Both the position numbers and the translations under genes were made by a program. A DNA stretch of 64,000 nucleotides from Acidobacteriota bacterium. Lineage in GTDB: Bacteria > Acidobacteriota > Thermoanaerobaculia > Multivoradales > JAGPDF01. The stretch spans positions 1 to 64,000 of the forward strand of contig JACTMI010000032.1 of NCBI GenBank assembly GCA_014584695.1, read 5' to 3'. Positions 4,709 to 22,506 of this stretch are shown piece by piece. How positions within the stretch are numbered: position 1 is the stretch's first letter; the number at the start of each line of letters is the position of its first letter. The notes under the pieces are model-generated. The model searched no databases. It saw nothing but the letters and a program-made list of their open reading frames with translations, and was not told where the DNA came from.

Positions 4709-6066
4709 AACGAACGCTCCTGGGCTGGACTTCGGCGGTGGCGGTCGCCGGGCTCGCGGTGGCGGCGCTGGTCTACATGGGCGCCTTCGACCGGCGGGAG
4801 TGGACGACGGATTCGAAACCCGCGCTCGAGGCGTTCCAGCGCGGACTCGACGAGCGGATGCGCTTCTATCCGCAGGACGCCATGGCGAGCTTCCGCAGGG
4901 CGCTCGAGGCGGATCCGCAGTTCGCCGCCGCGCGCGTGCAGCTGGTCGAGCTCGAGCGGGAGGCCGAGACACGTCAGGCGCACTTCGACATCCTGGCCAC
5001 GGTCGACCGCCGGCGGCTGACCGAGCGCGAACGATTCCTGGTCGACCTGTCGCTCGCCTGGCGGGACAAGGATCAGGTGCGCGTGCGCCATCTCGCGCGG
5101 CAGTTCGTCGAGCGCCACCCGCGGGACCCCTGGGGGCTGTCGATGGTGGCGGCGCAGGCCTGGGACGACCAGGATTGGTCGCGCGCGGAGCAGCTCTTCG
5201 GCCGCCTGCTCGCGGTCGAGCCGAACTGGGTGCTGGCGCGCAACAACCTCGGCTATCTGGCGATGGCGCAGGGGCGCTTCGCCGACGCCGAGCAGCACTT
5301 CCAGACCTACGCCTACGTGGCGCCCGATCAGGCCAACCCCCACGACTCGCTCGGGGAGCTCTACGTCCTGCTCGGCCGCTACGACGAGGCGCGGGCGCAA
5401 CTCGAGCAGGCGCTCGAGATCCGGCCGGACTTCTGCGCTTCCTACGGCAACCTGATCGCGATCGCCATGCTGGAGGGTCGCTCCGAGGCGTTCGGTCCCA
5501 TTCTGGACCGGGTCGACGCGCACTGCGAGCCCGCCATGGCGGAGCGGATGAGGTGTCAGGCCCGGATGATCGAGGCCTTCCTGGAGCGCGACTACGAAGC
5601 GCCCTGGCGGGAGGCGATCGACCGTTGTCTGCCGGGCCCGCGGGAGCGCGGGGTGATGTTCCACCGGCTGGCCCTGCTGACCGGCCGGGACGACGTCGCG
5701 CGCGAACAGGAAGAGGCGGTGGCGGCATTGGCCGCGAAGGACTACGCGACCACCGGCAAGCGCCAAGAGGGGGCGAACGCCTTCGAGCTCCACCTGCGCG
5801 GCGTGGGGCAGCTCGCCGAGGGGCGCAACGCGGAGGCCGCGGAGAGCTTGCGCGCGGCGGATCGGAGCGTCCGGTTCTGGGGGCTGGGCGACGGGCGATT
5901 CAAGCTGCTCAACAAGATGACGCTGGCGATCGCGCTCGAACGGGCGGGTGACGCAGCGGGCGCCGCGGCGGCACTCGCCGAGGTCGCCCAGATCAATCCC
6001 GAGTACGCGCGGCGACTGCCGCAGATCGCCGAGCGGACGCCCGGTCCGGCCCGCCGCGGCCGCTGA
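4705..6066 (+). CDS. Membrane-anchored tetratricopeptide-repeat protein
   Basis: The protein has 453 residues. One N-terminal transmembrane helix (about 5-25) precedes a soluble domain with several TPR motifs, for example PQDAMASFRRALEADPQFAA, LARNNLGYLAMAQGRFADAE and HDSLGELYVLLGRYDEARAQ. A further helical repeat set near the C-terminus ends in an Arg-rich tail. TPR arrays bind other proteins. The ATGA overlap with the upstream phosphatase suggests that the two are made together, and the TPR domain may form the input or scaffold of that signalling unit. The partner is not known. Confidence 0.85.
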   Translation: MKRTLLGWTSAVAVAGLAVAALVYMGAFDRREWTTDSKPALEAFQRGLDERMRFYPQDAMASFRRALEADPQFAAARVQLVELEREAETRQAHFDILATVDRRRLTERERFLVDLSLAWRDKDQVRVRHLARQFVERHPRDPWGLSMVAAQAWDDQDWSRAEQLFGRLLAVEPNWVLARNNLGYLAMAQGRFADAEQHFQTYAYVAPDQANPHDSLGELYVLLGRYDEARAQLEQALEIRPDFCASYGNLIAIAMLEGRSEAFGPILDRVDAHCEPAMAERMRCQARMIEAFLERDYEAPWREAIDRCLPGPRERGVMFHRLALLTGRDDVAREQEEAVAALAAKDYATTGKRQEGANAFELHLRGVGQLAEGRNAEAAESLRAADRSVRFWGLGDGRFKLLNKMTLAIALERAGDAAGAAAALAEVAQINPEYARRLPQIAERTPGPARRGR

Positions 6067-7797: not shown

Positions 7798-10077
7798 ATG
7801 CTGCGCAGAATCGAGCTCTCGAGCAGGCTCCGGAGCGCCTGGGTCGCGGGACTGCTCCTGGCGGCGCCGGCCTCGGCCGTCCGGCCCCACCCGATTCTCT
7901 TCGTCACCCAGGTGCCGATCCCGGGGGACTTCACCACCATCGGATCGGTCTTCGGCAACCACCGGGCGACGATGCAGACCGTCGGCCGCGGCGGCGACCT
8001 CTGGATCCTCTACCCGGACGGCAGTCTCAAGAACCTGACCGCCGCCGCCGGCTACGGCGTTGCCAGCGGCTTCCAGGGCGCGAGCTCGATCGCGGTGCGC
8101 GAGCCCGCGGTCCACTGGTCGGGGACGAAAGCGGTCTTCAGCATGGTGGTGGGGGCGCCGACCGCGCAGTTTCAGGTCGGCACCTACCGCTGGCGGCTCT
8201 ACGAGGTGACGGGGCTCGGTCCCGCCGACACCCCGGTCATCACGCTCGTCCCCAACCAGCCGGCCAACGCCAACAACGTCAGCCCCGCCTACACCAGCGA
8301 CGGCAAGATCCTCTTCACCTCGGACCGCTCGCGGGACGGCTCGGCGCACCTCTACCCGCAGCTCGACGAGTACGAGACCGCGCCGACGGTCTCCGGTCTC
8401 TGGCGGCTCGATCCGGCGACCGGCGAGCTCCTGCTGCTCGACCACGCGCCATCGGGAGTCTTCAAGCCGATCGTCGACAGCTTCGGGCGCGTGGTCTTCA
8501 CCCGCTGGGATCACCTGCAGCGCGACCAGCAGGCCGACGCCGACGATCTCGACCCGAACGGCGATCCCTACGGCACGTTCGACTGGTCGAGCGAGAAGCC
8601 GGGCTCGGTGCCGCTGGCACAGCGGATCGAGGTCTTCCCCGAGCCCCGCGCGGCTCGCACGGACATCCTCCTGCCGCACGAGGAGGGGCACAGTTTCAAT
8701 CACTTCTTCCCCTGGATGGCGAACCAGGACGGCACGGAGCTCGAGACGCTCAATCACGTCGGCCGGCACGAGCTGCACTCCTACTTCAATCGCGCCTTCA
8801 ACGACGATCCGAACCTCTCCGAGTTCATCGCCGCCGTCTCCGGCCGGGTCAATCCGAACTCGATCCTCAACTTCCTGCAGACCCACGAGAGCGCGAGCCA
8901 GCCCGGCCGTTACTTCGGCATCGACGCGCCGGAGTTCCAGACCCACGCGGCCGGTCAGCTGGTCTCGATGGAGGGACCGCCCGTGCTGCCGGCGGATCAG
9001 TTCGCGGTCACCTATTGGACGCACCGCAGCACCTCGAACGTCTCGAACACCCCGGGGCCGTGCCACAGCGGCTTCTACCGCAGCCCGCTCGAGCTCGGCG
9101 ACGGCTCGCTGGTCGCCGTGCACGCGGGGGAGATCTCGCCCGGGGTGCCCGAGACCCGGGCCGACATCAACACCGGCACGCGCCCGCTGCCCGGCTCGCG
9201 CTACAAGTTCCGCCTGCGCGACCTGGGCCCAGCGGGCTCCCCGTGCACGGGCTACCAGACCTACGGCGCGACGCTCACGCCCGGGATCACCAAGACGCTC
9301 TGGTTCTGGGACCCGGACGTGCGGGTGGACTACGTCAACACGACGCTCTGGGAGCTCGATCCGGTCGAGGTGCGGCCGCGCACGCCGCCGCCGATGCCGA
9401 CCGGCGAGCTGCCGGCCCCCGAGGCGGCGGTCTTCGCGCAAGAGCAGGTGGACGAGGCCGCCTTCCGCGCCGCGCTCGCCCAGAAGGGCCTGGCGCTGAT
9501 CGTCTCGCGCGACGTCACCACCCGCGACCTCGCCGACGAGCAGCAGCCCTACAACCTGCGCGTCCCCGGCGGCACCGCGCAGACCATCGGCGCGCCGGGC
9601 CGGATCTACGACGTCGAGTACCTGCAGCTCTTCCAGGGCGACCTGATCCGCGGCATCGGTGGCACGCAGACCCCGCGCGCCGGCCGGCGGGTGCTGGCGC
9701 GTCCGCTGCACGATCCGAAGGCGGTCAACCCGCCGCTCGATCCGGGCGATCCGGTGGGCAGCGTCGAGGTGGCGGACGACGGCTCGATCGCGGCGCTGGT
9801 GCCGGCGCACCGCGCGCTCTCCTGGCACCTGACGACCGGCGCCGGCACGCCGGTGGTGCGCGAGCGCTACTGGCTCACCTTCCAGGCCGGCGAGATCCGC
9901 GTCTGCGCCTCCTGCCACGGCGTCAACGCCCAGGACCAGGCCGGGCAGGCGCCACCGACCCACCAGCCCGAGGCGCTGCGGCAGCTCCTCCAGTGGTGGA
10001 AGAGCCACATCTTCACCGCCCGCCACGAAGAGGGCGACCTCGCCGAGTGGAGCTCCGCCACCGGCGCGGTGCCCTAG
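7798..10077 (+). CDS. Secreted mono-heme protein of the hydrazine-synthase-alpha-like family
   Basis: The product has 759 residues from ATG 7798, which has GGAGGAG just upstream. A signal peptide ends around LLAAPASA. The propeller-like middle reads PHPILFVTQVPIP, VSPAYTSDGKILFTSDR and GRVVFTRWDHLQRDQQ. This resembles the HZS-alpha middle-domain family, which is widespread outside anammox bacteria. One c-type heme site, CASCH (Cys703, Cys706, His707), lies near the C-terminus. A role as a periplasmic redox or binding protein is likely. Hydrazine synthesis is not implied, since the beta/gamma subunits and the second heme region are not seen nearby. Confidence 0.7.
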   Translation: MLRRIELSSRLRSAWVAGLLLAAPASAVRPHPILFVTQVPIPGDFTTIGSVFGNHRATMQTVGRGGDLWILYPDGSLKNLTAAAGYGVASGFQGASSIAVREPAVHWSGTKAVFSMVVGAPTAQFQVGTYRWRLYEVTGLGPADTPVITLVPNQPANANNVSPAYTSDGKILFTSDRSRDGSAHLYPQLDEYETAPTVSGLWRLDPATGELLLLDHAPSGVFKPIVDSFGRVVFTRWDHLQRDQQADADDLDPNGDPYGTFDWSSEKPGSVPLAQRIEVFPEPRAARTDILLPHEEGHSFNHFFPWMANQDGTELETLNHVGRHELHSYFNRAFNDDPNLSEFIAAVSGRVNPNSILNFLQTHESASQPGRYFGIDAPEFQTHAAGQLVSMEGPPVLPADQFAVTYWTHRSTSNVSNTPGPCHSGFYRSPLELGDGSLVAVHAGEISPGVPETRADINTGTRPLPGSRYKFRLRDLGPAGSPCTGYQTYGATLTPGITKTLWFWDPDVRVDYVNTTLWELDPVEVRPRTPPPMPTGELPAPEAAVFAQEQVDEAAFRAALAQKGLALIVSRDVTTRDLADEQQPYNLRVPGGTAQTIGAPGRIYDVEYLQLFQGDLIRGIGGTQTPRAGRRVLARPLHDPKAVNPPLDPGDPVGSVEVADDGSIAALVPAHRALSWHLTTGAGTPVVRERYWLTFQAGEIRVCASCHGVNAQDQAGQAPPTHQPEALRQLLQWWKSHIFTARHEEGDLAEWSSATGAVP

Positions 10078-10148: not shown

Positions 10149-10496
10149 TCAGCCGCCGCCGACCGTTGCCGACCAGGCCGTCGTGTCCCCGGTTTCGAAG
10201 CCGTCGCCGAAGAGGTCGTTGCGGTCGCCGAACCAGAAGCCGAGCTCCGCCTTGCCGCCCGCTCCGACGCTCACGCCGATCGGGCTCTGCCCGAGGGTGA
10301 TCTGCCCGCGATAGCCGGCGGACGTGGCGGTGCCGCCGCCATTGGCGTCGAGGACGATCCAGTGGATCGCGTAGTTGGGAGAGCTGGCGCGTGTCTCCTC
10401 CGGGGGGCCGGCCTCGCCGACCGGCGGCTGGGCCGCCGCGGCGGCGCCCAAGGCGGCGAGCACGACGCCCGCGAGCCTCGATCTGTCTCCGTACAT
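10149..10496 (-). CDS. Small secreted protein with DGFETGD C-terminal tail
   Basis: This 115-residue protein has a signal peptide cut near LGAAAAAQ and a good ribosome site (GGGGGAGG). The mature part, about 90 residues, reads NYAIHWIVLDANGGG and GYRGQITLGQSPIGVSVG. It ends with FGDGFETGDTTAWSATVGGG, a tail almost identical to that of the protein at 21067-22506. No domain is recognised. It follows the gene at 10509-11777 by 12 bases and is probably in the same operon, so the two may work together at the cell surface. Confidence 0.75.
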   Translation of the reverse strand: MYGDRSRLAGVVLAALGAAAAAQPPVGEAGPPEETRASSPNYAIHWIVLDANGGGTATSAGYRGQITLGQSPIGVSVGAGGKAELGFWFGDRNDLFGDGFETGDTTAWSATVGGG

Positions 10497-10508: not shown

Positions 10509-11777
10509 CTAGCGAGCGTTGACGAGGATCTCGATCTGGCCCGTGCTGTGCGCGAGCGGCTGGAGCGCCTTGCCGAGCACCGCTCCAGGCGGCGGCGAGA
10601 TGCCGGCACGCATCGCGTGGCCCGGCGTCGAGGAGGTCACCAGCAGGTCGCCCCGCTGGATGGCGCCGTTCTCGGCGGTGACCTTGCAGGGGACGATGCC
10701 GGTGATGGCCACCGGCACGCCCACCAGCGGCTCCCCGGTGTCCGGAGCGCCCGCCAGGACCCCCGGGCGGGTGGAATGGACGCCGATCACCGCGGTCGAG
10801 AAGGCCTCGTGGGAACGCTCCACCGCGCGATCCGCGCCGAGGCTGATCACCAGCACGTCGCCCGGTGACAGCGCGGCGCGATCGCCGTGCACGTCGAGGC
10901 GCTCCGCGAAGTCGGCGCCGCCGGTCTGCGTGCCCCCCTCGAAGTACCCCTTGCCGGTCCGGTCGACTCGGAAGTACCGGGTGCCGTAGTAGCTGCTCGA
11001 ACCGACCACGAAGTTGCCGGCGGCGTTTTCCTGCACGAGGTAGAGGGTCGGATAGAGATTTCCCGAGGAGTTGGCGCGCGCCGCCAGCGCGACGCCCGCC
11101 CCGGTGTTGTCGGCGTAGACGCCCCGCCCGGTGTTCGCCTGGGCGACGCCGCTGACGCCGTCGCCACTCTGGCTCTCCGCCTCGAGGGCGTCCTTGAAGC
11201 CCGCGCCGGTCGCCGAAGCGCGCAGGGCGACGCCGTCCTGGTTGTTGAAGAAGTAGCCGCCGTAGCCGGCGGGGGACTGCGAAGCGCCGACCACGCCGTA
11301 GTTGGTGCCCGAGGTCGCAGTCGCGTAGGCGCGCAGGCCGCGGCCGCCCGCGGCGGCGTTCTCGATGTGGAGGATCGCGCCACTGTAGGAGCCCTGGGAC
11401 ACCGCGCCCGGCCGGAGGCCCCAGGCGTAGACGGCGTTGTCGACGAAGAAGCGAGGCGCCATCTCGCCGTCGTCTCCGACTTCGATTCCCAGGGTCAGCT
11501 CGCGACCATCGATGCCGCAGCTGGTGCCGCCGAAGTAGGTCGAGAAGAGACCGCGGTCGACCGTGACCGACTTCGTGAGGGTGCAGAGCAGCGTGCCCGT
11601 GGCGACGTCGTAGAGACGGAACTTGAGCGTGTGACTGCCGTGCAGAGGGACGCCGGAGCTATCGGTGAGCCTGCCCTGGACCGGGATGTAGTCGCTTTGA
11701 GCGACGGCGGCGGTCGCCGTGGCCAGAACGAGGAGCAGAGTGGCGAGCAGCGGGGCGGAGCGCTTCGATCGATGCAT
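10509..11777 (-). CDS. Secreted fibre-like protein with G2-type autoprocessing domain
   Basis: The protein has 422 residues, a strong AGGAGG site and a signal peptide ending LATATAAVAQ. The N-terminal region (SDYIPVQGRLTDSSGVPLHG) resembles the head of many secreted proteins from this kind of bacterium. The middle, about 130-290, is rich in Gly/Ala/Asn/Tyr like tail-fibre or beta-helical stalks. The C-terminal third (GGADFAERLDV, LSPGDVLVIS, STAVIGVHSTRPGVL, RGDLLVTSSTPGHAM, GAVLGKALQPL) matches the intramolecular-chaperone peptidase-G2-like fold. It is probably an extracellular trimeric fibre whose C-terminal domain folds it. No host-range or binding partner can be read. Confidence 0.75.
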   Translation of the reverse strand: MHRSKRSAPLLATLLLVLATATAAVAQSDYIPVQGRLTDSSGVPLHGSHTLKFRLYDVATGTLLCTLTKSVTVDRGLFSTYFGGTSCGIDGRELTLGIEVGDDGEMAPRFFVDNAVYAWGLRPGAVSQGSYSGAILHIENAAAGGRGLRAYATATSGTNYGVVGASQSPAGYGGYFFNNQDGVALRASATGAGFKDALEAESQSGDGVSGVAQANTGRGVYADNTGAGVALAARANSSGNLYPTLYLVQENAAGNFVVGSSSYYGTRYFRVDRTGKGYFEGGTQTGGADFAERLDVHGDRAALSPGDVLVISLGADRAVERSHEAFSTAVIGVHSTRPGVLAGAPDTGEPLVGVPVAITGIVPCKVTAENGAIQRGDLLVTSSTPGHAMRAGISPPPGAVLGKALQPLAHSTGQIEILVNAR

Positions 11778-11939
11778 GAACGGCCTCCTGGTCGGATCGC
11801 GAGCGGGACCGCTCGACGACGCGATCAGGATCGGACCGTTCGGCCGCGCCCGGAATGGACCGGAGCGCCAAGTTCCTGGAGGAAAGCGCCAGCTCGGCGT
11901 CGCGCGGCGAGTTTCCGCCGCAATGCCGCCAGGTGGGAT

Positions 11940-13418
11940 TCAGGCCGCTTGCTCGCGGCCGGCGCCGATCGCCGTCGGCGAAGCGCCGTGGTAGGCCTTG
12001 AATCGGCGCGAGAAGTGGGCCGGGTCGTCGTACCCAACTCGGCGCGCGACCTCCTGGACCTGCAGTCCGCCCCGCTCGAGCAGGCGCCGCGCTTCGCGCA
12101 TCTTGACCGCCAGGATGAGCTCTCCTGGCGAGCAGGCGAGCGCGCCGGTCAGGTGGCGCTGCAGGGTGCGGAGGGAGACGAAGAGCTGGTCGGAGAGCTC
12201 GGCGGGGCTCAACGGCTGGTCCAACCGGTCGAGGATCGCCTTGAGCGCGCGCAGCTCGAGCCTGGCGTGGGCGCCGGAATCCTCAGCTCGCTCAGCGGAG
12301 CGCTCCAGGTAGTCGAGCGGCTCGGGTCTCGACGCGGGGGGCCGCGCCCGCGCGGCTCCACCTGCCCCGGTCGCCGCACCCTCGGCCACGCCTTCCCGAG
12401 CTGGCGGAGGCATCGCTTCGAGCGTCGCGAGGCGCCCGAGCAGCACCGCGATCCTGCGCCGGTGGTGCCACTCGTCCGCGATCACGCCGAGGGCGACGAG
12501 CACCGCCGCGAACAGGGCCGCCCCGACCAGCGTTCGCCTGGGGCCCAGGGTCTCGACCACCTGCTCCGCGAACGCCGGCCCCCCGGTCAAGCGGACCAGC
12601 GTCCACCGCTGCGGGTGGCCAAAATCCCTGCTGCCGGCGAGTGACCAGGGGCGGTAGAGACGCCGCTCGAGCTCGGCGGCGAGCTCGGCGGCGAGCCCGT
12701 TGTCCGTGTATGCCGAAGGTTCGTTCGCCGGTCTCGCGTCGAGCTTGCGCACGGTATCGAGGTCGAAACGCACTTGCTGAAGCGGCGGATGGTCGGCGAG
12801 CCAGTCGTTGAGCGCGAGGTCGATCGCGATCGTCGCGCCGTCCCGGGGCGCGATGCCGACCGCCGCGAAGGGAATGGCGCACTCGATCCGGTAGCCGTCC
12901 GGGTCACGCGCCGCCGCGACCTCGACCACCAGCGACTCGCGCTCCCGCTTGGGAACTTCCAGCTCTTCGAGCTCGAGCAGGAGCGGGTCGCCCTGGAGCA
13001 CGGAATACCGCCCGTCGGGCGCGAGCAGGAACTGGAAGTCGTCGGCGCCCATCCGCCGGGAGCGGTCGCCCCGGCCGTCGAGGTAGATCTCGACCGAATC
13101 CCACTGGAAGAGCTCCGGCCCCGCGATCGACGGCGGGGCCAGGTGCAGCGTGGGGTCCACCACCTCGAGCAGGACCCAGAGCGCGCGCCGATCCCAGACG
13201 AGCCGCGCCGCAGCGCGCGCCGCCGGCTCACCCTCGGTGGCGGGCCGTCGGATCTCGAAGCGAGCCGCTTCGGAGCCCCAGTCGGAGGCATCGCCGTCGA
13301 TTTCCAGATTGGCGGTGCGGTGCGGAATCTCGATCGTCGCTGGGCCCGGCGCAGAGTGGCCCCCGCCGCTCCCTGCGAGGGCCAAGACCGCGATGGCGAG
13401 CGAACGAGAGGTCAACAT
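11940..13418 (-). CDS. Membrane-anchored one-component regulator: sugar-binding-like domain, TM helix, AraC HTH
   Basis: The 492-residue start at 13418 has GGGAGG upstream, and the signal anchor reads LTSRSLAIAVLALAGS. Residues about 28-215 look like a CBM9/DOMON-type sandwich (EIDGDASDWG, FQWDSVEIYLDGRGDRS, YRIECAIPFAAVGI). A single hydrophobic helix lies at about 296-314 (TLVGAALFAAVLVALGVI). The last 100 residues are an AraC-type double helix-turn-helix (LFVSLRTLQRHLTGAL, VQEVARRVGYDDPAHFSRRF). The layout is an outside sensor joined directly to an inside DNA-binding domain, without a kinase. Likely targets are the secreted proteins just downstream or glycan-use genes; this is inference. 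Confidence 0.85.
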   Translation of the reverse strand: MLTSRSLAIAVLALAGSGGGHSAPGPATIEIPHRTANLEIDGDASDWGSEAARFEIRRPATEGEPAARAAARLVWDRRALWVLLEVVDPTLHLAPPSIAGPELFQWDSVEIYLDGRGDRSRRMGADDFQFLLAPDGRYSVLQGDPLLLELEELEVPKRERESLVVEVAAARDPDGYRIECAIPFAAVGIAPRDGATIAIDLALNDWLADHPPLQQVRFDLDTVRKLDARPANEPSAYTDNGLAAELAAELERRLYRPWSLAGSRDFGHPQRWTLVRLTGGPAFAEQVVETLGPRRTLVGAALFAAVLVALGVIADEWHHRRRIAVLLGRLATLEAMPPPAREGVAEGAATGAGGAARARPPASRPEPLDYLERSAERAEDSGAHARLELRALKAILDRLDQPLSPAELSDQLFVSLRTLQRHLTGALACSPGELILAVKMREARRLLERGGLQVQEVARRVGYDDPAHFSRRFKAYHGASPTAIGAGREQAA

Positions 13419-13549
13419 GCCTCCCGGGAGTGAGGTTCCCGAAGTGACTCCAGCCCAAGGTAGCACGCGACCCGGAGGCCTCACAATCCCGGCCGCCACA
13501 GCCCATTGCGGGCTCCTACTGCCGCAGCCCAGGGATCATCTGTCGCGAG

Positions 13550-13846
13550 CTACCCGCCGGCGATGGCGCCGACGACGAGGTAGGGCTCGGCGCCCGTCGC
13601 GACGGCTGCGGGGAGAGGGGCGTCGGGGGCGTCGTCGGAGAGATCGCGGCCGCAGGCGTAGAGGCGAATGAACGGGCGGCGGCGCTTCGTCCGCTGGTCG
13701 CGCGTAGTGCCGGCGAGCATCGGGTAGCGCGCTTCGAGGGCGTCCAGGACCGCGGCCTGCGTCACCGGGCCGTCGACTTCGAGCACGACCTCGCCGTCGA
13801 TGCGCGCGAGGCTGCGGAGCGGCGCGGGCAGCACGACGCGGATCAT
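13550..13846 (-). CDS. MoaD/ThiS-like sulfur-carrier protein
   Basis: This 98-residue ubiquitin-fold protein has [20 protein letters not shown] near the start. It ends in the required di-glycine tail (VVGAIAGG), where an E1-like enzyme would form the adenylate and thiocarboxylate. The ATG overlaps the stop of the BNR gene by four bases, so the two are coupled. A matching E1-rhodanese gene is divergently placed at 15137. It is longer than classical MoaD (about 80 residues) because of a charged insert ([14 protein letters not shown]). Confidence 0.88.
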
Positions 13847-14958
13847 GGCAAGGTCTGGACCTCGACCGAGAGCACCGCCGGCAAGTCGCGGACGATGGCC
13901 GTCCAGTGGTCGCCGCCGTCGGGCGAGGCGTAGACCTGCCCGCCGGTGGTGCCGAAGTAGACGCCGCAGGGGTCGAGCGCGTCGACCGCCATCGCGTCGC
14001 GCAGGACGTTGACGTAGCAGTCGCGCTCCGGCAGCCCGCGGCCGAGCTCCTGCCACTCGCCGCCGCCGGTGCGGCTCCGGTAGACCCGCAGCTTGCCGTC
14101 GGGCGGGTAGTGGAGCGAGTCGCTGGTGATCGGCACGACGTAGATCGTCTCCGGCTCGTGGGCGTGGACGTCGATCGGGAAGCCGAAATCGGTCGGCAGG
14201 TTGCCCGAGACCTCGCGCCAGGAGTCGCCGGCGTCGTCGCTGCGCATCACGTCCCAGTGCTTCTGCATGAACAGCACCTCGGGGCGCGACGGGTGGTGCG
14301 CGATCCGGTGTACGCAGTGGCCGACTTCGGCGGTCGGGTCGGGCATGAACTCGGAGCGCAGCCCCTCGTTCTTGGGCGTCCAGGTCGCGCCGCCGTCGTC
14401 GCTGCGAAAGACACCGGCGGCGGAGATCGCGATCCAGATCCGCTCGGCGCGCGCCGGGTCGACCAGGATGGTGTGCAGTCCCATGCCGCCCGCGCCCGGC
14501 ATCCAGCTCGCCCCCGAGCCGTGGCCGCGCAGCCCGGAGAGCTCCCGCCAGCTCTTGCCGCCGTCGGTCGAGCGAAAGAGCGCGGCGTCCTCGACGCCGG
14601 CGTAGACCGTGTCGGGATCGGCGCGCGACGGCTCGAGGTGCCAGACGCGCTTGAACTCCCAGGGGTGCGGCGAGCCGTCGTACCACTGGTGGGTGCCGGG
14701 GACGCCGTCGTAAGGGAAATCGTTGCCGACCGCCTCCCAGGTCACGCCGCCGTCGTCCGAGCGCTGCACGACCTGCCCGAACCAGCCGCTGGTCTGCGAG
14801 GCATAGATCCGGTCCGGGTTCGCCGGGGAGCCTTTGAGGTGGTAGATCTCCCAGCCACCGAAGTGCGGGCCGGCGACCTCCCAGCGCTCGCGCTTGCCGT
14901 CGGCGGTCAGGACGAACGCGCCCTTCTTGGTGCCGACCAGGACTCGAATCCGGCTCAC
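13843..14958 (-). CDS. Cytoplasmic BNR/sialidase-like beta-propeller
   Basis: GTG 14958 was chosen over longer starts because GGAGGTGG precedes it and the fold begins there ([20 protein letters not shown]). The product is 371 residues. Repeated Asp-box motifs mark propeller blades: [48 protein letters not shown] and [12 protein letters not shown]. There is no signal peptide. Such propellers are named exo-sialidase-like, but the catalytic set of true sialidases is not evident here. Its fixed coupling to a MoaD-like carrier suggests a role with that carrier and not glycan cleavage. Confidence 0.85.
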
Positions 14959-15136
14959 CGTTCCACCTCCTTCGCTGCTCTCGGCTCCCGCCGCGCTCTC
15001 ACTGCGGTCCGCGCGTCGACCGCGCCTCCGCAAGATCCTCGGCGGGGAGGAGAGCGGCGAGTCTAGGGCCGATGGCGCCGCCAGCGCCAGTTGGTCGTAG
15101 CATCGGGGCCTGGAGAGGGGCGAATCGCCCCGCGTC

Positions 15137-16285
15137 ATGGCCGAGCTCTCGCACCCGGAGATCCTGCGCTACAGCCGCCACCTGCTGCTGCCCGAGGTGA
15201 CGCTCGATGGGCAGCGCCGGTTGAAGGCGGCGCGCGTGCTGGTGGTCGGCGCCGGCGGATTGGGCTCGCCGCTCGCGCTCTACCTCGCCGCCGCCGGCGT
15301 CGGCACGCTCGGCCTGGTCGAGTTCGACGCGGTCGACCTGACCAACCTCCAGCGGCAGATCCTCTACACCACCGCGGACGTCGGCCGGCCCAAGCTCGAA
15401 GCGGCGCGCGAGCGCCTCGCCGGCATCAACCCCGAGATCGAGATCGTGGCGCACCCGCTGCGCCTGGCGAGCGACAACGTGCTCGAGGTGATCGACGGCT
15501 ACGACGTGGTGGCGGACGGCACCGACAACTTCGCCACCCGCTACCTGGTCAACGACGCCTGCGTTTTCACTGGCAAGCCGAACGTCCACGGCAGCGTCTT
15601 TCGCTTCGACGGCCAGCTCTCCGTCTTCGACGCCCGGCGCGGGCCCTGCTACCGCTGCCTCTTCCCGGAGCCGCCGCCGCCGGGGCTGGTGCCTTCGTGC
15701 GCCGACGGCGGCGTGCTCGGCGTGCTCCCGGGCATCGTCGGCACGCTCCAGGCGCTCGAGGTGCTCAAGCTGATCCTCGGGCGCGGGGAGCCACTGGTGG
15801 GCCGTCTGGTGCTCGTCGACGCCCTGGGTTTCCGCTTCCGGGAGCTCGCCGTCGAGAAGGACCCCGCCTGCCCGGTCTGCGGCGAGGCGCCGACGATCCG
15901 CGCGCCGATCGACTACGAGGAGTTCTGCGGCGTGCGGGGGCGCGAGCCCGAGCTCGATTCCAGCGGCCTGCCGATGCTCACCGTCGAGGAGCTCCACGCG
16001 CGCCGCCAGGCGGGGGAGTCGTTCGAGCTGCTCGACGTGCGCGAGCCGCACGAGGCGGAGATCGCGCGCATTCCGGGCGCGCGGCTGCTGCCCCTGGGCG
16101 AGCTCGCGGCGCGCCTCTCCGAGCTCGATTCGGCGCGCACCTACACGATCGCCTGCCACCGCGGCACCCGCAGCCTCCAGGCCTATCAGCTCCTCCGCCA
16201 AGCCGGTTTCGCCAGGTTGCGGATCCTGGCGGGGGGGGTCGACGCCTGGGCGGAGCGGATCGACGCCGGGATGGCGAGATACTGA
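15137..16285 (+). CDS. moeZ: E1-like adenylyltransferase/sulfurtransferase (MoeZ type)
   Basis: The 382-residue protein has two parts. Residues 1-260 are a ThiF/MoeB fold with the nucleotide loop [20 protein letters not shown], the adenylating region [11 protein letters not shown], and zinc-type cysteines in CYRCLFPE and CPVCGEAPT. Residues about 285-380 are a rhodanese domain with active Cys in ACHRGTRS. Enzymes of this kind adenylate the C-terminal Gly of a MoaD/ThiS carrier and load it with sulfur, for molybdopterin, thiamine, cysteine or thio-tRNA synthesis. The carrier at 13550 is the obvious partner. A GGGGCG-AAT-CGCCCC hairpin sits just before the start. Confidence 0.9.
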
Positions 16286-16362: not shown

Positions 16363-18357
16363 ATGAGGGCGCCCGGGATCGTCGTCGGGCTGGTGGTCGT
16401 GGCGAGCGCCGCGCCAGCGCAGAACAGCGTCCAGCTGCTGGGTGTCGCCGGCTACGGCACGTTTCACGCCGCCGGCGTCACCGCGGCGGTCGCCGGCGAC
16501 GCCGACGGGGATGCCGTCGCCAGTCTGGAGTGGCGGCGGCTGGGTGATGCAGCGTTCCGCGCGGGTCACCCCCTGATCCGGATCAGCCCCGGCCTGTTCG
16601 CCGGCAGCCTCTTCTTCCTCGATCCGGGCGCGAGCTGGGAGGCGCGGGTCACGCTCTCCGATCCCGACGGCGTGATCGGCGAAGCCACGGCGGTGGCGCC
16701 GTTAACGACCCGCTGGCCGCTCCTGGCCGAACCGACGCTGCGCACGCTCTACGTCGCCCCCGGCGGCAGCGACGGCAACACGGGGACCGACCCGGCGCAC
16801 CCGCTCGCCACCATCCAGGCCGCGGCGCAGCGCGCCCAGGCCGGGGATCTCGTCGCCATCGCCCCCGGCGTCTACCGCGAGGCGGTGACGGTGACGGCGT
16901 CGGGGACCGCCGCGCAACCCATCGTTTTCCGCGGCTCCGGCCCCGGCGTCGTTCTCGACGGCGCGGACGGCGCGATCGCCGCCGGCGTCGCCTGGAGTCA
17001 CGACGGCAACGGTGTGTACTCGCGGGCGCTCGGCTTCGCGACCGGGCACGTCGTCGCCGACGTCGGCCGCCTCTTCCGGTACGACGACCTCGCGGACCTC
17101 CTGGCGCTGCCGGCCGGCCCCCCCGGCGGCTTCTGGCTCGACGGCGGGACGCTGCGGGTCCGTTTCTCGGACGGCTCGTCGCCGGCAGCGCACGCGATGC
17201 ACGTCGCGCGGCGCGAGAACGGCTTCTACCTCGATGGCGTCGCCCATGTCCGGATCGAGAACCTGGAGATCCGCCACTACGGCTCGGGTGATTTCGGCAA
17301 AGGGGTCTATCTCCGCTTCGCCAGCGACTGCGCGGTGCGCGGCAGCGAGCTTCACGAGATCGGGTCGGCGGGGGTCTGGGTCAAGGGCGGCGCGCGCCAT
17401 CTGATCGAGGGCAATTCGTTCTGGGACAGCTCGATCCCCGGCTGGGTCTGGGACTGGACCAAGGGCTCGAGCGCCGAGGGCAACGGCGTCGTCTTGACCG
17501 ATGACGTCGGCCGCGGGCACGTCGTCCGCCGCAATCTCGTCCAGGGGACTTTCAACGGCATCGGCCCCTGCGGCGGCAGCGCGCCGCCCGGCGGCGTCGT
17601 CACCACGGAGGTGGACGTCTACGAGAACCTGTTCCTGGACCACAACGACGACGCGCTCGAGCCCGAGGGCTGGTGCTCGAACGTCCGCATGTGGGACAAC
17701 CACATCGAGCGGGTCCACATGGCCTTCGCGGTGGCGCCGGCCGCGCCGGGGCCGACCTGGATCGTCCGCAACGTCGCCTTCGACTTCGGCGCCACCCGCA
17801 CCAGCCAGATCGACGGCTACCTGGCCTCGGCGCTCAAGATCAACAGCGGCTACGCGACGCCGGTCGGGCCGCTCCTGCTCTACCAGAACACCTTCCTGAC
17901 GACGGCGCCGGCGACCGCCGCGATGACTCTGCTCAACCCCGGGCAGAGCACTCACATCACGGCCCGCAACAACCTCTTCGCCGGCACCGGCGAGGCGCTC
18001 TACAAGGTCAACCCGGTGCTGCTCGACTGGGACTGGAACGACCTCCACCGCTCGTCCGCCGGCCGGCTGGTCTACTGGCAGGGGACGAGCTACGCGAATC
18101 TCGCGGCCTTCCAAGTCGGTACCGGCCAGGAGCCCAACGGCCTCTCGGCGCCACCGCTCCTCGTCGCGCCCGGCGCCGGCGACTTCACGCCTCTGGCCGC
18201 CAGCCAGTTGGTCGACCGGGGCGTCGAAATTCCCGGCATCAACGACCGCCGCCCCACCGCTGACCCGCCCGACCTCGGCGCCGTCGAGCGCTCGCTCCTC
18301 TTCGCCGACGCCTTCGAGGAGGGGAGCCTCCTCTACTGGTCCTTCACTTCGCCCTGA
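16363..18357 (+). CDS. Secreted right-handed parallel beta-helix protein
   Basis: This 664-residue protein has a short signal peptide ending ASAAPAQN. An N-terminal beta-sandwich-like part, about 25-125, leads to a pectate-lyase-like motif (LYVAPGGSDGNTGTDPAHPL, TIQAAAQRAQAGD). Beta-helix rungs follow with Asn ladders (VRIENLEIRHYGSGDFG, HLIEGNSFWDSS, VDVYENLFLDHNDDALEPEG). The end is LLFADAFEEGSLLYWS, a degenerate copy of the DGFETGD tail seen in two other proteins here. Such folds often bind or cleave polysaccharides, but no lyase residues can be assigned. A secreted, surface-associated role is likely. Confidence 0.85.
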   Translation: MRAPGIVVGLVVVASAAPAQNSVQLLGVAGYGTFHAAGVTAAVAGDADGDAVASLEWRRLGDAAFRAGHPLIRISPGLFAGSLFFLDPGASWEARVTLSDPDGVIGEATAVAPLTTRWPLLAEPTLRTLYVAPGGSDGNTGTDPAHPLATIQAAAQRAQAGDLVAIAPGVYREAVTVTASGTAAQPIVFRGSGPGVVLDGADGAIAAGVAWSHDGNGVYSRALGFATGHVVADVGRLFRYDDLADLLALPAGPPGGFWLDGGTLRVRFSDGSSPAAHAMHVARRENGFYLDGVAHVRIENLEIRHYGSGDFGKGVYLRFASDCAVRGSELHEIGSAGVWVKGGARHLIEGNSFWDSSIPGWVWDWTKGSSAEGNGVVLTDDVGRGHVVRRNLVQGTFNGIGPCGGSAPPGGVVTTEVDVYENLFLDHNDDALEPEGWCSNVRMWDNHIERVHMAFAVAPAAPGPTWIVRNVAFDFGATRTSQIDGYLASALKINSGYATPVGPLLLYQNTFLTTAPATAAMTLLNPGQSTHITARNNLFAGTGEALYKVNPVLLDWDWNDLHRSSAGRLVYWQGTSYANLAAFQVGTGQEPNGLSAPPLLVAPGAGDFTPLAASQLVDRGVEIPGINDRRPTADPPDLGAVERSLLFADAFEEGSLLYWSFTSP

Positions 18358-21066: not shown

Positions 21067-22506
21067 ATGAAGCTCATGATGTCCCGCCAACTCTCGCGCA
21101 GCGCGCTCGCGCTCCTCCTGCTCGCTCCGGCCACCGCCAGCGCGATCTGTTACTCGAACACCTGCGCGGCCTGCACGCCGCCGATGGGTACGAACTTCGT
21201 CCTCTCGACGTTGATCCCGTCCGCGGCGTTCCCGGGTAGCACCGCCAACGAACCGGTCGCCTTCGTCGATCCCGACGACGGCCGCCCGTTCCGGCTGGTG
21301 CCGGTGCAAGAGGGGGCGATCCTGGTCTGGGACGGCACCACGGGGAGCTTTCTGGCGACGCCGTTTCTCGACCTGCGCAACGACGGTGCCGGCCCCGGCC
21401 TGGACAAGGTGCTCTACGGCGGCGAGCGCGGGCTGCTCGCGATGGTGGTCGATCCGGATTACGTCACGACCGGCCACTTCTGGGTCTACTACACGCGGGT
21501 CTCCGACGGCGACATCGTGGTCGAGCGCTACCAGCGCTCCGCCGGCGACCCCAACGTCGCCAACACCACCGGCACGGTGGTCCTCCGCATCGATCACCCG
21601 GCCACCAACCACAACGGCGGCTGGCTGGCCTTCGGCCCCGACGGCTTCCTCTACATCTCGACCGGCGACGGCGGTGGCGGCTGCGACGGCGGCGCGGGCA
21701 GCAACGGCGACGGCCAGAACCCGGGCACGCTCTCGGGCAAGATCCTCCGCCTCGACGTGCGCGGCGTCGAGCCCGGGGCGGGAGCGCCGGAGTGCGGGCT
21801 CGACGCCAACTACGGCGTGCCGACCGGCAACTGGTACGTCGGCGTCGCCGGCTGCGACGAGGTCTGGACGCTCGGGCTGCGCAATCCCTTCCGCTTCAGC
21901 TTCGACCGCGTGACCGGCGACATGTACATCGGCGACGTCGGCCAGGACAACTGGGAGGAGATCAACCTCCTGCGGCCGACCGACATGGGCGCGGTCAACT
22001 TCGGTTGGGTCTGCCGGGAAGGCTGCAACAGCTCGTCGGTCGCCCCGTCGAGCTGCTCGATTCCCGGTTGCGGCACCAGCGAGGGAGCGACCTGCCAGTA
22101 CCCGACGCCCTCGGGCAAAGTGGACCCCATCCTCTGTCACTCGAACCCGAACGGCTGGGCTTCGATCATGGGCGGCTACCGCTACCGGGGAACCCGCGTG
22201 CCGGACCTGGCGGCGCGCTACGTCTACGGCGACGTCTCGTGCGGCCAGATCTGGGTGACCACCTCGCTCGATCCGGCCGTGCCGGCGACGACCGCCGCCG
22301 CCTGCTGGCGCAGCGGCTTCGGTGGCACTTATGGTTTCGCCGAGGACAAGCTCGGCGAGCTCTACGTCGTCCGCGGCGGCGCCAACCGGATCGAGTGCAT
22401 CCACGACGGCAACCCCGGCGGCTGTTACTGGGCGGGCTGGCGGGGAATGTTCGAGGACGGCTTCGAGACGGGCGACACCTCCCGGTGGTCGGCGGCCGTT
22501 CAATGA
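21067..22506 (+). CDS. Secreted PQQ-type sugar (glucose/sorbosone) dehydrogenase-like propeller
   Basis: The 479-residue protein has GGAGG before the ATG, a signal peptide ending ATASA, and then a Cys-rich start (CYSNTCAACTPP). The propeller has family motifs: GGERGLLAMVVDPDY, NHNGGWLAFGPDGFLYISTG, GDGGGGCDGG, LGLRNPFRFSFDRVTGDMYI and GDVGQDNWEEIN. These match the soluble glucose dehydrogenase fold, where the early His and the DGG loop bind PQQ and calcium. It ends MFEDGFETGDTSRWSAAVQ, a shared C-terminal tail. Probably it is an extracytoplasmic oxidoreductase; the substrate is unknown. Confidence 0.88.
   Translation: MKLMMSRQLSRSALALLLLAPATASAICYSNTCAACTPPMGTNFVLSTLIPSAAFPGSTANEPVAFVDPDDGRPFRLVPVQEGAILVWDGTTGSFLATPFLDLRNDGAGPGLDKVLYGGERGLLAMVVDPDYVTTGHFWVYYTRVSDGDIVVERYQRSAGDPNVANTTGTVVLRIDHPATNHNGGWLAFGPDGFLYISTGDGGGGCDGGAGSNGDGQNPGTLSGKILRLDVRGVEPGAGAPECGLDANYGVPTGNWYVGVAGCDEVWTLGLRNPFRFSFDRVTGDMYIGDVGQDNWEEINLLRPTDMGAVNFGWVCREGCNSSSVAPSSCSIPGCGTSEGATCQYPTPSGKVDPILCHSNPNGWASIMGGYRYRGTRVPDLAARYVYGDVSCGQIWVTTSLDPAVPATTAAACWRSGFGGTYGFAEDKLGELYVVRGGANRIECIHDGNPGGCYWAGWRGMFEDGFETGDTSRWSAAVQ

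Follow-up and report, generated by a model that had tools for sequence, protein, structure and literature searches.

A predicted membrane AraC-type regulator with an outside CBM9-type domain, and its stand-alone, often kinase-adjoining relatives

Within 64,000 nucleotides of an acidobacterial genome (the window), one gene encodes a sensor domain, a membrane helix and a DNA-binding domain in a single chain, as judged from Pfam, hydropathy and AlphaFold2. One-component membrane AraC regulators are known in kind; the form fused to a CBM9 domain is real, rare and new, and a counterpart is kept in at least one distant relative. Of greatest interest is the kinase-linked family that lies behind the fused gene.

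The original prediction had placed a gene at 11940–13418 and read it as a CBM9/DOMON-like domain, a membrane helix and an AraC helix-turn-helix (HTH) in one chain. An open frame is indeed present there, on the minus strand (Table 1), and this composition is borne out by Pfam, by hydropathy and by the CBM9 fold of the outer part. From N to C terminus, a likely signal peptide is followed by the CBM9-type domain, a single membrane helix, a short helix that is basic and coiled-coil-like, a loose linker and an AraC/XylS double HTH. An in-frame GTG lies upstream of the ATG, at 13499, and the ATG aligns with the start of a homologue in G196, a genome from another family of the class. As this 454-aa homologue is 42% identical to the window protein and has the same order of parts, the window gene is not a chance frame. 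The ten Pfam families matching the window protein at E values up to 1 included no histidine kinase or receiver domain and no HTCS-like periplasmic domain.

Table 1. Coordinates of the gene, the parts of its product and the upstream repeat (window positions)
Feature	Position	Strand	Remarks
CBM9-TM-AraC gene	11940..13418	(-)	492 aa; ATG start at 13418; open frame
Likely signal peptide	13347..13418	(-)	about residues 1–24; N-terminus hydrophobic in both the window and the G196 protein; by eye
CBM9-type outside domain	12582..13301	(-)	residues 40–279; low-confidence insert at about 206–255; Pfam, AlphaFold2, PDB matches
F104 codon	13107..13109	(-)	at Trp71 of T. maritima CBM9; Tyr in G196 and CBM9.3; profile alignment
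F266 codon	12621..12623	(-)	inferred Trp175 equivalent
Transmembrane helix	12477..12533	(-)	residues 296–314; hydropathy
Basic juxtamembrane helix	12414..12476	(-)	residues 315–335; LLxRLxxLE-like pattern; AlphaFold2 and family alignment
Pro/Ala-rich linker	12321..12413	(-)	residues 336–366; pLDDT 52–54 over 341–370; without predicted secondary structure
AraC/XylS DNA-binding domain	11946..12320	(-)	residues 367–491; Pfam and AlphaFold2
CAGCCCA x3, candidate operator	13451..13531	(+)	copies at 13451, 13499 and 13525; within 131 bp upstream of the gene

Residues 296–314 form the most hydrophobic segment of the protein (mean Kyte-Doolittle 2.56), a value reached in 2 of 2000 shuffles of the sequence from residue 25 onward. 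The segment is directly followed by HHRRR, which fits an outside-to-inside topology, and each of the 17 proteins tested has a hydrophobic stretch (mean 2.07–3.21) at the equivalent place. In the AlphaFold2 model a single helix, 293–335, spans the membrane segment and beyond, with block pLDDT values of 87–91 over 301–330 and 78 over 331–340. As hydropathy, the HHRRR sequence and the predicted helix all fit, the objection that this stretch might not be a membrane helix fails. At the inner end, Pfam HTH_18 matches residues 408–483 (E 2.9e-20; 72.8 bits against a cut-off of 33.6), and the domain at 367–491 is modelled as all-helical, with block pLDDT of 94–97 over 391–480 and lower values at 367–390. 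Apart from this domain and the helix, the full-length model is poor (mean pLDDT 58.6), and the CBM9 fold was judged from a separate model of the outer domain. Structure prediction, which had been proposed as a check on the protein, gave a CBM9 fold outside, a helix where the membrane segment was expected and a modelled AraC domain.

The outer domain was recognized by Pfam as CBM9_1 (PF06452) at residues 40–209 (E 8.9e-15; 55.5 bits against a cut-off of 23.4). Modelled separately with 16 relatives, it reached a mean pLDDT of 76.9, with values of at least 90 at 113 of 267 residues. In structure comparison, the model matched the CBM9 modules 7nwn (Z 19.4, rmsd 4.9 over 192), 1i82 (Z 19.0, rmsd 2.6 over 184) and 7nwo (Z 19.0, rmsd 4.4 over 188). 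The next kind of match was 4jpq, a putative carbohydrate-binding protein (Z 17.3, rmsd 3.2 over 195). Lower scores were obtained with ethylbenzene dehydrogenase gamma, a protein with a role in heme binding (Z 12.9, rmsd 3.7 over 180), with nitrite oxidoreductase (Z 12.9, rmsd 3.3 over 187) and with cytochrome-type domains (Z 8.5–8.6).

At the sugar site, profile alignment places E110 of the window protein on Glu77 of CBM9, which we take to be a sugar-site residue, and Q129 on Gln96. Phenylalanine would stand at both places of the clamp tryptophans, the second by an equivalence that we infer: the structural alignment stops at model residue 255 and chain residue 188, and position 266 falls on 175 if the final stretch is ungapped. 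By sequence alone this second match is weak, as 115 of 2000 shuffles were equally good. F266 lies inside an RDFGHP block that is identical in the window and G196 proteins. In characterized modules, the clamp is formed by Trp71 and Trp175 (T. maritima) or by Tyr89 and Trp191 (C. kristjansonii CBM9.3), and Gln96 bonds to glucose (PMC8280721). The domain therefore has aromatic residues at one sugar-clamp position and probably at the second too. As the predicted fold is that of CBM9 and aromatic, Glu and Gln residues align with the places of the sugar site, a sugar is a likely ligand of the outer domain.

Full-length matches were restricted to the window genome and G196 among the ten best candidates from each of 148 class genomes; because at most ten candidates per genome were scored, paralogues may be missing. 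The CBM9 halves of the two proteins are 40% identical. Among the candidates scored, the gene was present in none of three same-genus genomes (0/3), and among the matches listed for eight genomes reached from other records, none spanned both CBM9 and AraC. A scan of genome contigs reported 21 matches, each covering either the CBM9 or the AraC part and none both. A third, divergent CBM9–AraC gene may be split over two contig ends in G489, where a CBM9 start (L120:5814–6179) and an AraC end (L119:4838–5164) each run off a different contig; the CBM9 fragment has no aromatic residue at the first clamp position. A literature search that leaned on abstracts, with subscription journals largely outside it, found no description in print of a CBM9-TM-AraC protein.

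The inner half of the window protein also occurs by itself, with strong matches in at least 15 further loci from 13 genomes (class search, ten best candidates per genome). These matches start at window-protein positions 280–318 and end at 486–493. Stand-alone members have about 200–240 residues, begin at or just before the membrane segment and have no outside domain; their starts were picked by eye, and those of L071 and L109 would be CTG and TTG, respectively. A profile of the 15 members matches the window protein over profile positions 15–205 of 208 with 172 bits, including the membrane helix, the coiled coil and the AraC domain. No family members were found outside the class at E values up to 1e-18 in a 396-genome sample of the phylum with the seven best candidates per genome. 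The counts leave out L121 (G388), L119 and L120 (G489, contig ends) and weaker AraC matches. L121 is an 88-aa frame at about 4977–5150 that contains the end of a family AraC domain, has no start and is probably a remnant.

A Ser/Thr kinase gene, in one case a remnant, is the next gene in 10 of the 15 stand-alone loci (L071, L072, L106, L107, L108, L110, L111, L112, L113 and L118), with frames that overlap or lie less than 200 bases apart. As it adjoins 10 of 15 members, the kinase is usual rather than defining for the family; the five others, with no kinase beside them, are L109, L114, L115, L116 and L117, the start of L116 being 58 bases away from the end of its contig. By contrast, a kinase was the next gene for none of 14 control AraC genes, which were hand-picked from the class search, seven of them in genomes that lack the stand-alone family and some with short flanks. 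Four of these 14 had a kinase in the fetched flanks, about 1.2–3.3 kb away (the gaps for L135 and L139 being approximate) and with open frames in between, among them a frame of 385–393 codons in L131 and L132. The seven family genomes checked hold 18–82 kinase matches each, which corresponds to a chance of about 3–9% of finding one within 3 kb. Kinase and AraC gene lie on the same strand with the kinase first in two loci and the AraC gene first in three, and are convergent in three and divergent in two. That the two genes stay adjacent in differing orientations speaks for a functional link between them. HRD and DFG are conserved in all eight kinases examined, each of which also has a hydrophobic segment (mean 1.66–2.67) after the kinase domain, and Pfam found both kinase and TPR domains in all four partner kinases scanned. 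The TPR part of the L112 kinase is unseen because the kinase runs off the contig end. In L110 (G337), where the TM-AraC gene is intact, a short frame next to it at 5273–5509 runs from a kinase start straight into a TPR-like end and is apparently a decayed partner kinase. In the two kinase-first loci, L071 and L072, the stop codon of the kinase and the AraC frame meet, as GTGA in L072; the corresponding codon in L071 is CTG.

Neither of the two fused genes adjoins a kinase, and no kinase-domain match was present in the 64-kb window or in the 19 kb of L070. As the fused genes carry CBM9 and have no adjoining kinase, a direct outside sensor probably replaces the kinase input, which suggests that one input was exchanged for the other. 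In trees of the AraC half the two fused proteins were not sisters. A single fused clade was marginally rejected with the outgroup (AU p 0.049) and not rejected without it (AU p 0.092), so that the trees do not establish one fusion event; two fusions, or a single old fusion followed by loss, are possible. In the tree without the outgroup, the fused proteins grouped with L106–L108 (support 89/89). We also considered loss of a phosphorylation site in the fused proteins, as a G.T[ST].V motif before the AraC domain is found in 11 of 15 stand-alone members and in neither fused protein. This idea is weakened by L106–L108, which lack any trace of the motif yet have kinases; as these are the members that group with the fused proteins, motif loss need not accompany fusion. 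Tentatively, and as a possibility that we rate below even, the class may hold a modular family in which a membrane-anchored AraC output is driven either in trans by a neighbouring transmembrane Ser/Thr kinase-TPR protein or, after input exchange, by a fused CBM9 ectodomain. If true, kinase-driven and one-component signalling would have been interconverted naturally on a single DNA-binding module.

The gene had also been described as sitting beside secreted surface proteins. This holds in the window, where the products of 10509–11777 and 10149–10496 look secreted by their N-termini (by eye), but the setting is not clearly conserved: the flanks of the G196 gene differ and resemble proC and uvrC (by eye from translations). 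A special link to the downstream neighbour at 10509–11777 was rejected, as it has relatives in 28 of 148 class genomes and those of G196 lie on contigs other than that of its AraC gene. A glycan-utilisation locus is likewise unsupported, as none of the nine neighbours scanned (7.8–22.5 kb) matched a family of glycoside hydrolases or of sugar uptake. Pfam matches in these nine were HZS_alpha/PD40, BNR, ThiF with rhodanese, Beta_helix, aconitase and glucose/sorbosone dehydrogenase (21067–22506); three had no match, one of them MoaD-like by eye. The HZS_alpha and PD40 matches fall in 7798–10077 (+), a frame with a CASCH heme-binding-like motif and a WSSATGAVP end. At 13550–16285, the MoaD-like and BNR genes lie on one strand, divergent from the ThiF-rhodanese gene. 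The genomic place is not a conserved one for the regulator, as G002, G003 (with ThiF) and G004 keep the moaD-BNR pair with no AraC gene there; in G001 the BNR protein had no match.

A sequence like DGFE[ST]GD-x-x-x-WS stands at the end of several proteins that look secreted; in the window it occurs at 10185–10205 and 22456–22476, with a variant at 18307. The pattern DGFE[ST]G[DN] occurs 17 times in the genome and a reversed control pattern not at all; these tails may act as C-terminal sorting tags. Five further family loci, L071, L072, L106, L108 and L111, also have them within 4 kb. Overall they were found within 4 kb of 6 of 17 family loci versus 2 of 14 control loci, a difference too weak to claim a link to the family. 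Upstream of the window gene, the CAGCCCA triplet is a possible operator, offered as a lead only: the 64 kb contain eight plus-strand and three minus-strand copies, CAGCCCA was chosen after the fact, and some 7-mer occurred three times in 516 of 5000 random 131-bp stretches of the window. No repeat of this type was listed upstream of the G196 gene, and a scan of 11700–13600 found no promoter or terminator.

The one-component membrane receptor of the original prediction stays the best reading, and we consider it probable that the protein is a one-component transmembrane transcription regulator that senses an outside ligand through CBM9 and binds DNA from the membrane. In such a model, the signal peptide would export the protein so that the CBM9 domain faces the periplasm or the cell surface; one helix would cross the membrane, and hydropathy, charge and the structural model suggest that the basic coiled-coil-like helix keeps the AraC domain near the inner face. 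The ligand, most likely a glycan chain end, would be held between the two aromatic residues. Its binding might alter the packing of two chains through membrane helix and coiled coil, upon which the paired AraC domains may bind to a promoter or let go of it. The membrane helix together with the coiled coil and the AraC domain would then form a ready-made output module that stands alone elsewhere in the class, in most cases next to a transmembrane Ser/Thr kinase that carries C-terminal TPR repeats, and the fused CBM9 sensor would probably replace the kinase input.

Alternatively, the CBM9 domain could tether the protein to an envelope polymer, or dock it to a partner protein, and sense no soluble signal. 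The replacement of the clamp tryptophans by Phe would fit this, as would the lack of a glycan-degrading family among the nine neighbours scanned and the polyspecificity of CBM9, of which C. kristjansonii CBM9.1 is without the expected residues (PMC8280721). We nevertheless regard a pure tether as unlikely, as an aromatic residue occupies the first clamp place in both the window and the G196 protein and also the inferred second place, the Glu and Gln are kept and the fold is close to sugar-bound forms. Binding of heme or another small non-sugar molecule, as in other members of the superfamily fold, is suggested by the ethylbenzene dehydrogenase gamma, nitrite oxidoreductase and cytochrome-type matches; true CBM9 modules score about six Z units higher, and with the sugar-site Glu and Gln in place such a ligand appears very improbable. 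On the output side, an outside cue might trigger a cut in or near the membrane helix, after which the AraC half would travel free to its promoters. A low-confidence linker does lie between membrane helix and DNA-binding domain, but no protease family was seen among the nine neighbours scanned and the few membrane regulators studied bind DNA while anchored, according to PMC11856585, so that we judge regulated proteolysis to be quite improbable.

If sensing through CBM9 from the membrane is right, a carbohydrate-binding module best known from secreted enzymes would serve a gene switch in the membrane as its outside sensor, which would suggest a simple chassis for sugar-responsive synthetic switches. 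The fused sensor and the neighbouring kinase would form a natural pair, one output module with two kinds of input, and Ser/Thr kinase control of 'DNA-binding-domain only' regulators would become testable.

That membrane-integrated AraC proteins exist, as originally stated, is confirmed by precedents in Vibrio and Saccharophagus. TfoS, of the Vibrio chitin response, is like the window protein an AraC-family protein with a periplasmic sensor domain, is a proposed sugar sensor and regulates from the membrane (PMC7564644, PMC11856585). A relationship to hybrid two-component sensors is described for the periplasmic domain of TfoS (PMC7564644), whereas the outer domain of the window protein has the CBM9 fold. 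In Saccharophagus degradans, 16 of 31 AraC regulators are reported to be membrane-bound, again combining an AraC HTH with the membrane and proposed to sense outside polysaccharides (PMC2386152). Examples tabulated there have two membrane regions each and lie next to a cellulase or a xylanase, whereas the window protein has a single helix behind its likely signal peptide and none of its nine neighbours scanned is of that kind. With the CBM9 modules of T. maritima Xyn10A (1i82) and Caldicellulosiruptor (CBM9.3; 7nwn/7nwo), the window domain shares the fold, the Glu and Gln and the first-clamp aromatic; those are xylanase binding modules, whereas the window CBM9 is fused to a DNA-binding protein and has Phe at the clamp. 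For the stand-alone members, the closest parallel in our comparison is PknK of Mycobacterium tuberculosis, a Ser/Thr kinase that phosphorylates the AraC protein VirS (PMC4601284), as we propose for the family kinases and their AraC neighbours. According to PMC4601284, PknK is soluble and contains a STAND domain, whereas the family kinases have a membrane segment and TPR and their AraC partner is predicted to be anchored in the membrane.
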